The translations under genes were made by a program, and so were the position numbers. Shown here piece after piece: positions 20,488 through 61,925 of a stretch of 64,000 nucleotides of DNA (positions within the stretch are counted from its first letter, which is position 1; each line of letters opens with the position of its first letter). Source of the stretch: Telluria aromaticivorans (GTDB lineage: Bacteria; Pseudomonadota; Gammaproteobacteria; Burkholderiales; Burkholderiaceae_D); assembly GCF_013003915.1 (NCBI RefSeq), contig NZ_JABAIV010000002.1, forward strand, positions 124,001-188,000, in the 5' to 3' direction. The notes under the pieces are model-generated. The model searched no databases and was not told the origin of the DNA. It was given only the letters and a program-made list of their open reading frames with translations.

Positions 20488-20624
20488 CGTAGGGTGGGCG
20501 GGGTAATTTCGGGCAATGCCCGGAATTACGAACACCCACGCGGTGATAGTTGCAATATGAACCGACGCACAGGCTGCAGCACCGTAATTTGAACGCGTGG
20601 GCAGGAAACTTGCCCACCCTACGA
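20488..20624. repeat. BIME-like repeat pair 5, left arm with long capped stem
   Basis: Left arm begins CGTAGGGTGGGC and ends ACGCGGTGATAG, but its apical loop is replaced by an extra palindrome at 20503-20529 (13-bp arms GTAATTTCGGGCA/TGCCCGGAATTAC, one mismatch). The right arm on the minus strand begins CGTAGGGTGGGCAAG and ends ACGCGTTCAAATTACGG. Lies between the convergent M28 and hemW genes. Confidence 0.85.
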
Positions 20625-26421: not shown

Positions 26422-26509
26422 TTGAACGCGCGGGCGGGGGACCCGCCCACCCTACGACAGGCGATACGCTTTACGTAGGGTGGGCAAGTCTCTTGCCCGC
26501 GCGTTCAAA
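26422..26509. repeat. BIME-like repeat pair 6 in reversed order
   Basis: Here the arms are arranged tail-out: TTGAACGCGCGGGC...CCCACCCTACGA, 18 bases, then CGTAGGGTGGGC...GCCCGCGCGTTCAA. Both have the TTCAA type tail. All other pairs start with CGTAGGG on the outside. It lies between yicC and gmk, inside a likely operon. Confidence 0.85.
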
Positions 26510-58660: not shown

Positions 58661-59657
58661 CAAGGATAAAGAAGGCATCCAGCAGGCAGCGATCCTGATG
58701 CTGGCCCTGGGCGAAGCGGAAGCTGCCGAAGTGATGAAATTCCTGGGCCCGCGCGAAGTGCTGAAACTCGGCGGCGCAATGGCGCAAATGAAGGCCGTGC
58801 AGCATGGCGAAGTGGTGAAGGTGCTGGAAGCCTTCGTCGTGGAGACCAACCTGCATTCGACCGTGGGCCTGGATTCCGACGAATATATCCGCCAGGTGCT
58901 GACCAAGGCGCTGGGCGACGACAAGGCCGCCGTGCTGCTCAACCGCATCCTGGGCGGCAAGGACGCCTCGGGCATTGAAAGCCTGAAGTGGATGGACTCG
59001 CCGTCGGTGGCCGAACTGATCCGCAACGAGCACCCGCAGATCATCGCCACCATCCTGGTCCACCTCGAGCGCGACCAGGCCTGCGAAATCCTGGCGAACT
59101 TTACCGAACGCCTGCGCAACGACGTGGTGCTGCGTATCGCCACGCTCGACGGCGTGCAGCCGGCCGCCTTGCGCGAGCTGAACGACGTGCTGACCAAGCT
59201 GCTGTCGGGTAACGAGAACATCAAGAAATCGTCGCTGGGCGGCGTGCGCACCGCTGCCGAGATCCTGAACTTCATGAGCGGCGAGCAGGAATCGGCCGTG
59301 ATGGACAACATCAAGAACTACGACAACGACATGGCGCAGAAGATCATGGACGAGATGTTCGTGTTCGATAACATCATCGACATCGACGACCGTGGCATCC
59401 AGCTGCTGCTGCGCGAAGTGCAGTCCGAGATGCTGATCATTGCCCTGAAAGGCGCCTCGCAAGACCTGCGCGATAAGATCTTCAAGAACATGTCGCAGCG
59501 TGCGGGCGAGATGATGCGCGAAGACCTGGAGTCAAAAGGTCCAGTGCGCCTGTCCGAGGTCGAATCCCAGCAGAAGCAGATCCTGCAGATCGTGCGCCGC
59601 CTGTCCGACGAAGGCCAGATCGTGCTGGGTGGTAAAGGTGAGGATTCCTTCGTCTGA
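58653..59657 (+). CDS. fliG: flagellar motor switch protein FliG
   Basis: 334 residues, standard size. Three domains: N-terminal FliF-binding, middle with the EHPQIIATILVHLE motif, and a C-terminal domain with charged torque helix residues (MDEMFVFDNIIDIDDRGIQLLLREV). FliG couples stator energy to rotation. It overlaps fliF by 8 bases and shares a base with the fliH start. Confidence 0.97.
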   Translation: MSDKDKEGIQQAAILMLALGEAEAAEVMKFLGPREVLKLGGAMAQMKAVQHGEVVKVLEAFVVETNLHSTVGLDSDEYIRQVLTKALGDDKAAVLLNRILGGKDASGIESLKWMDSPSVAELIRNEHPQIIATILVHLERDQACEILANFTERLRNDVVLRIATLDGVQPAALRELNDVLTKLLSGNENIKKSSLGGVRTAAEILNFMSGEQESAVMDNIKNYDNDMAQKIMDEMFVFDNIIDIDDRGIQLLLREVQSEMLIIALKGASQDLRDKIFKNMSQRAGEMMREDLESKGPVRLSEVESQQKQILQIVRRLSDEGQIVLGGKGEDSFV

Positions 59658-60385
59658 TGATTCCTAAGGAACAGCAAAGCGCCTACCAGCGCTGGGAAAT
59701 GACCTCGTTCGGCGACGAGCGCCCGAGCACGGTCGCGCGCCGCGCCGCGATGGCGCCGCCGGCCGCGCCGGCCGCCCCTGCGGTGAACGTGGATGCGGGT
59801 GAAATCGTGCGCAACGTGCCGATGCCGACCGCTGAAGAACTGGAAGCGATCCGCGAGCAGGCGCGCGCCGAAGGCTATGCCGAAGGCCTGCTTGAAGGCC
59901 AGGCTGCGGGCCAGGCCCAGGGCTATGCCGACGGCGCCGCCGCCGGCCAGCTGGAAGCCAGCGCCGAGCTGGAACACCTGCGCTCGATTGCCGCGACCTT
60001 CAGCGACGCCGTGGTGCAGGCCGACGAAACCATCGCCCACGACGTGCTGGAACTGGCCCTGCGCCTGGCGCGCGGCATGGTGCGCACGGCGTTCGAGGTG
60101 CGTCCCGAACTGATTTTGCCGGTGGTGCAGGAAGCGATCGGCTACCTGCCGGTGCTGGCCCAGCCGGCCGTGCTGACGCTCAACCCGCTGGACGCCGAGA
60201 TCGTGCGCGACGCCATGGGGCAGGAGCTGATCAAGGGTGGCTGGCGGATTGCGGAAGATATCGGCATGGCGCGTGGCGGGTGCAAGGTGGATACGGCGAG
60301 CAACCAGATCGATGCGCAGGCTGCGGCGCGTTGGGGGCGGTTGACCCACTCTCTGCAATCCAATGTCGACTGGATGGGTTCGTAG
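59657..60385 (+). CDS. fliH: flagellar assembly protein FliH; stop codon supplied by a repeat
   Basis: 242 residues. The N-terminus is variable; GxxxG-type repeats occur at about 72-110 (AEGYAEGLLEGQAAGQAQGYADGAAAGQ), and the C-terminal domain (VLELALRLARGMVRTAFEVRPELILPVVQEAI) binds and holds back the ATPase FliI. The gene begins on the last base of fliG. Its TAG stop (60383-60385) lies inside the first bases of a BIME-like repeat (cgTAGggtgggc), so the natural C-terminus may have been cut or extended by the insertion. Confidence 0.92.
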   Translation: MIPKEQQSAYQRWEMTSFGDERPSTVARRAAMAPPAAPAAPAVNVDAGEIVRNVPMPTAEELEAIREQARAEGYAEGLLEGQAAGQAQGYADGAAAGQLEASAELEHLRSIAATFSDAVVQADETIAHDVLELALRLARGMVRTAFEVRPELILPVVQEAIGYLPVLAQPAVLTLNPLDAEIVRDAMGQELIKGGWRIAEDIGMARGGCKVDTASNQIDAQAAARWGRLTHSLQSNVDWMGS

Positions 60386-60512
60386 GGTGGGCGGCTTCGC
60401 CGCCCGCGCGTTCAACCTCCGCCGGAACCACCGCGACATAATTAATTTCGGCGATCACCGCGTGGGCGTTTGTTATCCATGCCCCCGGCATGAATAACCC
60501 CGCCCACCCTAC
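60381..60512. repeat. BIME-like repeat pair 10, inside the fliH-fliI operon, with long capped stem
   Basis: Left arm CGTAGGGTGGGCGGC... ends GCGCGTTCAACC and begins 5 bases before the end of fliH. The right arm on the minus strand begins GTAGGGTGGGCGGG and ends ACGCGGTGATCG; it carries an extra palindrome at 60472-60498 (GTTATCCATGCC/GGCATGAATAAC, one mismatch). It separates fliH from fliI by 139 bases in an otherwise tightly packed operon. Confidence 0.88.
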
Positions 60513-60524
60513 ATTGATCAACCG

Positions 60525-61925
60525 ATGACGAATCACACCGCCGACCGCCACACCGCCCGCTGGAAATCGTTCTTGAAAGACTGCGACTCGCTGGTAGGCT
60601 TCGCCGAACCCATGCAAGTCTCGGGCCGCATCACGCGCGTGGCCGGCCTGGTGATGGAATGCGTCGGCCTGAAGCTGGCCGTGGGCAGCGCCTGCACCAT
60701 CCCGATGCCCAACGGCACCCGCATCGAGGCCGAGGTGGTCGGTTTCGAAGGCGAGCGCCTGTTCCTGATGCCGCAGAGCGACGTCGAAGGCGTGGTGCCC
60801 GGCGCGCGCGTGTTTCCGGTCGAATCGGCACTGCCGAAACCCGGCAGCGTGCAGCACCCGCGCCGTCGTCCGAGCGACCGTACGCGCCACCTGCCGGTGG
60901 GCATGCAGCTGCTGGGCCGCGTGGTCGACGGCGCCGGCCGCCCGCTCGACGGCAAGGGTCCGCTCAGCACCGACGAAGTCGGGCCGCTGAACGCCCGCCC
61001 GATCAATCCGCTCGACCGCGCGCCGATCACCGACACCCTGGACGTGGGCGTGCGCGCGATCAATGCCATGCTGACGGTCGGCCGCGGCCAGCGCCTGGGC
61101 CTGTTCGCGGGTACCGGTGTCGGTAAATCGGTCTTGCTGGGCATGATCGCGCGCTACACCACGGCCGACGTGATCGTGGTCGGCCTGATCGGCGAACGGG
61201 GCCGCGAGGTAAAGGAATTCATCGAGCAGATCCTGGGGCCGGAAGGCCGGGCCCGCTCGGCGGTGGTGGCCGCGCCGGCCGACTCCCCTCCCCTGCTGCG
61301 CCTGCAGGGCGCGGCCTATGCCACCGCCATTGCCGAACATTTCCGCGACCAGGGCAAGAGCGTATTGCTGATCATGGATTCGCTGACCCGCTACGCGATG
61401 GCGCAGCGCGAGATCGCCCTGGCGATCGGCGAGCCGCCGGCCACCAAGGGCTATCCGCCTTCGGTGTTCGCCAAGCTGCCGGTGCTGGTGGAACGCGCCG
61501 GCAACGGGCTGGAGGGCGGCGGGTCGATCACGGCCTTTTATACCGTGCTGTCCGAGGGCGATGACCAGCAGGATCCGATCGCCGATGCGGCGCGCGGTAT
61601 CCTGGACGGCCACATCGTGCTGAACCGCCACCTGGCCGAGGCCGGCCACTATCCGGCGATCGACATCGAACAGTCGATCTCGCGCGCCATGCACGGCATC
61701 ACCACCCACGAGCACCAGCTGGCCGCACGCAAGCTCAAGCAGCTGTACTCGCGCTTCCAGCGCTCGCGCGACCTGATCAGCGTCGGCGCCTACGCCGCCG
61801 GCAGCGACCCGGTGCTCGACCAGGCCATCGCCAAGAATGACCAGATCGAAAATTTCCTGTGCCAGGAAATCCACGACAACGCCACCATGCTGGAGAGTTT
61901 GGGGCAATTGACCTCTCTATTCTAA
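60525..61925 (+). CDS. fliI: flagellum-specific ATP synthase FliI
   Basis: 466 residues. The Walker A region [15 protein letters not shown] lies at about 188-202, Walker [21 protein letters not shown] near 280, and the family stretch [25 protein letters not shown] after it. FliI is the hexameric ATPase of the flagellar type III export apparatus, partnered by FliH and FliJ. The repeat pair directly upstream separates it from fliH. Confidence 0.97.

Follow-up and report, generated by a model that had tools for sequence, protein, structure and literature searches.

A GTAG REP doublet supplying the fliH stop codon in Telluria aromaticivorans

Repetitive extragenic palindromes (REPs) of the GTAG superfamily have been described as elements with a GTAG end and a palindromic stem, which occur in short- and long-loop forms, as head-head dimers and near genes for REP-associated tyrosine transposases (RAYTs) (Di Nocera et al. 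2013, PMC3733652). According to that description, the GTAG ends often supply the TAG stop codon of flanking open reading frames, and the REPs of Bradyrhizobium GTAG-14 carry complementary inner loop regions of up to 27 bp. In the REPIN-RAYT system, inverted REP doublets with a spacer (REP doublets forming hairpins, REPINs) form one hairpin, are present in high copy number and have an adjoining transposase gene (Bertels and Rainey 2011, PMC3116915). In E. coli, REPs at most 15 nt from a stop codon are described as able to stall ribosomes (Liang et al. 2015, described in PMC12306157). Here, we analyzed 64,000 nt of Telluria aromaticivorans (NZ_JABAIV010000002.1; hereafter the window, to which all position numbers refer), from a genome of 5.23 Mb (G000, the source genome). 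In this window, a REPIN with GTAG ends lies between the flagellar genes fliH and fliI and contains the fliH stop codon.

The traits listed for the GTAG superfamily in PMC3733652 are found here as well: the GTAG end, the palindromic stem and the short- and long-loop forms at fliH itself, and head-head dimers, nearby RAYT genes and TAG stop codons supplied by the repeat. The inverted doublet with its spacer, the single hairpin, the high copy number and the adjoining transposase gene are likewise shared with the REPIN-RAYT system as set out in PMC3116915. The fliH repeat, with its stem GGTGGGC, was assigned at the level of the superfamily; PMC3733652 divides the latter into 24 families, and its main text mentions neither Massilia nor Janthinobacterium. 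Among open-licence titles, none dealt with REPs in Massilia, and only a Pseudomonas work combined REPINs or RAYTs with a flagellar operon. The supply of stop codons by GTAG REPs is known already from PMC3733652, and fliH is a further instance; as one among hundreds of copies, the fliH repeat alone matters little.

The repeat at the end of fliH

We consider, with a probability of about 0.82, that the end of fliH is a tolerated REPIN insertion that supplies the stop codon of the gene; that it was moved by a RAYT, gained separately and had a consequence for the operon we infer. The fliH stop codon TAG (60383-60385) lies inside the GTAG of the left REP unit, as the initial annotation had noticed, and the inverted partner terminates in CTAC at 60512. 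The right end of the repeat was correct in that annotation, while its left end, put at 60381, was off by one, GTAG beginning at 60382. GTAG sits at one end of a short palindrome, outside the stem of its own unit, as in other GTAG REPs, and only when the pair folds as a unit do the two GTAG ends pair with each other's complement. The RNA of positions 60381-60516 (136 nt) has a predicted folding energy of -67.9 kcal/mol, against -43.5 +/- 3.6 kcal/mol in shuffled sequences (z -6.8). Its predicted fold is a single long hairpin with side stems, at the base of which the left GTAG, including the fliH stop codon, pairs with the right CTAC. Two inverted REPs with a spacer and one predicted hairpin make this element a REPIN. 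No Rfam match was obtained at gathering thresholds between 59000 and 64000.

The fliH ends of 62 genomes of the genus, G000 included, were read. The 12 closest genomes by FliH have at least 83% identity, the next one 76%. The TAG of a REP is the fliH stop codon in seven of the 62 (G000, G001, G013, G015, G072, G073, G081), all of them among these 12. Four others of the 12 are free of the repeat at the fliH end, and their fliH-to-fliI spacing is 2 (G036), 13 (G007), 0 (G003) and 3 bases (G082). In the window, 139 bases separate the fliH end at 60385 from the fliI start at 60525, which is 12 bases 3' of the repeat end. The other junctions of the block are overlaps (fliF/fliG and fliG/fliH) or short gaps of 53 (fliI-fliJ) and 28 bases (fliJ-fliK), none of them above the 55 bases first reported along with the 139-base gap. 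With spacings of only 0-13 bases in the four repeat-free relatives, the proposed splitting of a tight fliH-fliI junction is real.

The claim that the repeat alters the FliH C-terminus did not survive the comparison with repeat-free relatives, in which FliH ends at the same residue or one off, and we dropped it. With the repeat, FliH ends in ...NVDWMGS (G000) or, in the others, in ...NVDWLS, ...NIEWLGS or ...NVDWLT; without it, the ends are ...NVDWLGN (G036), ...NVDWLGH (G007) and ...NVDWLS (G003 and G082). Judged from these translations, the C-terminus is barely changed. The insertion would thus be tolerated because its GTAG frame ends FliH near the normal length. Among 80 named loci (one ending before the stop), the TAG of a REP ends fliH in five (L073, L074, L076, L077 and L078). 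These are no further cases, since over the bases compared they match the junctions of G073, G013, G072, G001 and G015.

Table 1. Coordinates of the genes and repeat elements at the fliH-fliI junction
Feature	Positions	Strand	Description
fliH	59657..60385	+	242 aa, flagellar assembly protein; Pfam FliH 115.1 bits
fliI	60525..61925	+	466 aa, flagellar export ATPase; TIGR03496 656.7 bits
REPIN, two inverted GTAG REP units, 131 bp	60382..60512	.	GTAGGGTGGGC ... GCCCACCCTAC
Left REP unit, short-loop form	60382..60411	+	GTAG, then palindrome with core GGGCGGC-TTC-GCCGCCC; limits by eye
Right REP unit, long-loop form	60459..60512	-	GTAG end at 60512; inner limit by eye
27-nt palindrome in loop of right unit	60472..60498	.	

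REP units, stop codons and RAYTs in the source genome

With at most two mismatches, GTAGGGTGGGC occurs 33 times in the window, versus 18.4 +/- 3.8 times in shuffled sequences. The genome has 618 exact copies of this core 11-mer, 301 on one strand and 317 on the other, compared with six (2 and 4) of the reversed control. REP units, defined as an intact GTAG with at most one mismatch across the next seven bases, were collected from a sample of 61 stretches (1.257 Mb of the source genome, the window included) picked for known REPs. This sample holds 279 units, of which 218 stand in convergent pairs. As expected of GTAG REPs, they are numerous and mostly extragenic: 185 face the 3' end of a gene, 81 a 5' end, six lie inside called genes and seven at the ends of stretches.

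Fifteen of the 185 3'-facing units are positioned exactly at the stop codon, which is TAG in every case. In a second peak of 12 units, the stop codon ends three bases before GTAG. Between 15 and 60 nt, the background amounts to 70 units at 46 positions, or 1.5 per position. Among units that enter the 3' part of a called gene in its direction, 15 are in the TAG frame, for which one third would be expected, and at most two in the other frames (P 4e-6; 4e-4 with all six inside units counted). Hence, it is mainly insertions with an immediate GTAG stop that appear to survive.

Besides fliH, hscB, fmt and a gene resembling that of nicotinate phosphoribosyltransferase (identified by reading the translations) are among the genes with a REP at the stop codon. 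Among the best 30 of 61, 62 and 62 matching genomes, respectively, with G000 in each set, a REP-like TAG stop was counted at four hscB, six fmt and five nicotinate phosphoribosyltransferase-like loci, by a loose criterion (GTAG and at most three mismatches in seven) under which, by eye, three of the five matches for the last gene and one of the fmt matches do not resemble this repeat. For one of the hscB loci (L239), moreover, the wrong stretch was read. The seven of 12 genomes with the repeat at fliH had been considered as a signal specific to this gene; that idea was dropped after these three genes had been inspected. Elsewhere in the window, at the junction at 20489, a REP TAG seems by eye to end the upstream gene in G001, G003 and G007, and not in G000, G013 or G036. 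Overall, supplying a stop codon is not particular to fliH and is a genome-wide habit of the repeat.

Three Y1 transposases are encoded in the source genome. Two of them belong to NCBIfam REP_Tyr_transpos (186 and 183 bits; cut-off 80), and both of these RAYT genes (L032 and L033) have REP units on either side, those of L033 each with one base changed. The third protein scores under the REP_Tyr_transpos cut-off, and neither GTAGGG nor CCCTAC was found in its 3.3-kb locus. With RAYT genes flanked by the same REP that is present in the genome, the source genome has the anatomy of a REPIN-RAYT system, and the fliH REPIN is presumably a non-autonomous element mobilised by the RAYTs of this genome. 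The REP pairs measure 101-136 bp end to end in 85 of 109 cases, which sets them apart from the doublets as they are described in PMC3116915.

The core 11-mer was found in 58 of the 62 genus genomes, at 1 to 651 copies each, the low counts being equal to those of the reversed control (0-4 per strand). Within this one genus, copy number therefore ranges among species from 0 to 651, and by eye it appears unrelated to how many Y1 transposases are encoded. The base 5' of GTAG is C in 238 of the 279 units, and the base before that is T or C in 244; a flanking C before and G after are found in 75 of 109 pairs. These flanking bases could belong either to the element or to its target. Cleavage sites CT and CA have been reported for other RAYTs (PMC8266576).

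The 27-nt palindrome of the right fliH unit (12-bp stem, 3-nt loop) also recurs at fixed size in the long-loop units, of which 63 were sampled. At least 10 of the 12 pairs are formed in 54 of these, among 39 distinct sequences, with compensated pair changes at most stem positions around a core such as GCCANTGGC. Of the perfect 12-3-12 palindromes in the sample, 44 of 52 are near REP units; of the other eight, three belong by eye to degenerate REPs and about three to a repeat unrelated to these. The long-loop units resemble the long complementary loops described for Bradyrhizobium GTAG REPs in PMC3733652. A pair of a different layout, with outward-facing REPs, is present in the window at 26445-26485 between a yicC-like gene and gmk (names by eye). 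Its layout is kept in five of six species compared and degenerate in G036, while other REPs turn over.

Origin of the fliH insertion

In the proposed sequence of events, a REPIN would have inserted at the final fliH codon and its TAG would have turned into the stop codon. The tight fliH-fliI junction would thereby have become a 139-base gap with a strong hairpin, and translation of fliI would then begin with neither close coupling nor a clear Shine-Dalgarno (SD) sequence. The pairing of the fliI start to the anti-SD sequence is indeed poor (-1.3 kcal/mol). Across fliI starts, it ranges from -0.3 to -3.3 kcal/mol with the repeat (four starts) versus -2.2 to -5.1 kcal/mol without it (three starts), in ranges that overlap and a sample that is too small to rely on.

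Several points weigh against this sequence of events. Poor SD pairing is common to fliF (-1.8 kcal/mol) and fliK (-2.4 kcal/mol), and not a property of fliI alone. Movement by a RAYT is deduced from the anatomy of the system. The peak at the stop codon arises in part by definition, because any in-frame insertion before the native stop counts there; moreover, genes were called with a simple codon-score script, and stretches entered the sample because they hold REPs. On a fliG-fliH tree of 15 genomes, onto which the REP state was mapped as a label, five state changes are needed, of which well-supported branches force only two, and the tree is compatible with a single early gain and repeated losses. 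Finally, some copies were probably inherited, because the fliH elements of G001 and G015 are 0.86 alike; their best values, with sampled pairs of G000 as the only reference, are 0.81 and 0.82.

The last two points are those on which a single ancestral insertion common to the 12-genome clade would rest, followed by several losses and by rewriting of the inner sequence through conversion with other copies. This history, the less probable one in our view but the strongest of the competing accounts, also has in its favour that, across seven genomes, the place where the REP TAG ends fliH differs by no more than one residue. It is opposed by the position of G000 in the tree, where its sister is G082 (support 100/99), followed by G036, both without the element. 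In addition, identity among the remaining full-length fliH elements is 0.62-0.75, roughly the level seen between unrelated copies. For the G000 element, identity is 0.62-0.68 with those of four genomes and 0.66 with that of G081, compared with a median of 0.65 and a best value of 0.80 against the REPINs sampled elsewhere in G000. G072 keeps only one 30-nt unit at its fliH end. Taken with the tree, these values make a separate gain in the G000 lineage the likelier history.

A broader claim would be that GTAG REPs recurrently capture stop codons, entering tight operons under selection for frame. According to it, fliH, hscB and fmt would have been hit repeatedly in separate species, each hit within an operon swapping translational coupling for a junction tuned by a hairpin. 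We regard this as doubtful; if true, it would provide natural experiments on operon stoichiometry.

Possible effects on FliH and FliI

For a tolerated REPIN insertion, the most economical reading of the sequence is an effect that is at most modest. The hairpin, with the fliH stop codon at its base, could stabilise the upstream fliH mRNA or slow termination, and FliI would be coupled more loosely to FliH. The effect on the FliH:FliI ratio suggested in the initial annotation is plausible.

It is unlikely that the REP at the fliH stop is instead a kept regulatory element, at which ribosomes would stall, lowering FliH and setting the FliH:FliI ratio. The stop codon does lie at the base of the predicted stem, the REP TAG ends fliH in seven of the 12 closest genomes, and the hairpin, being less than 15 nt from the stop codon, is placed like the E. 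coli REPs reported as ribosome-stalling (Liang et al. 2015, via PMC12306157). Unlike those REPs as described there, the fliH REP includes the stop codon itself, and stalling could be proposed here by analogy. Position alone says little, because 57 of the 185 3'-facing units are at most 15 nt from a stop codon. Moreover, the repeat is absent from the closest sister and from three more of the near relatives, and unrelated genes show the same arrangement.

That the hairpin acts as an intrinsic terminator or attenuator at this junction is very improbable despite the strong fold (z -6.8): the terminator scan was empty at 60382-60512, where the G+C-rich hairpin has no T-run behind it, so that this reading was dropped. 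Termination would also cost export gene expression, because fliI-fliJ-fliK lie downstream in the same orientation and a scan of 59600-61000 for sigma-70-like promoters, the only type covered, found none.

The value of the junction lies in the relatives. A dozen close Massilia-type genomes, in which fliH is free of the repeat, carries differing REPINs or has fliI displaced, can be used as a matched set, making the effect of REPs on operon expression measurable at one junction.

Two of the fliH ends stand out. In G026 (L041), also among the 12 closest genomes, a decayed REP end stands behind fliH and is followed by DNA resembling the start of an insertion sequence; insertion sequences reportedly target REPs. 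In M. phyllostachyos (L076), fliI was not found within 2.5 kb behind the fliH repeat (from position 3218 of L076) and the flagellar operon is therefore broken. With the break immediately 3' of the fliH REP, the repeat looks like a rearrangement point.
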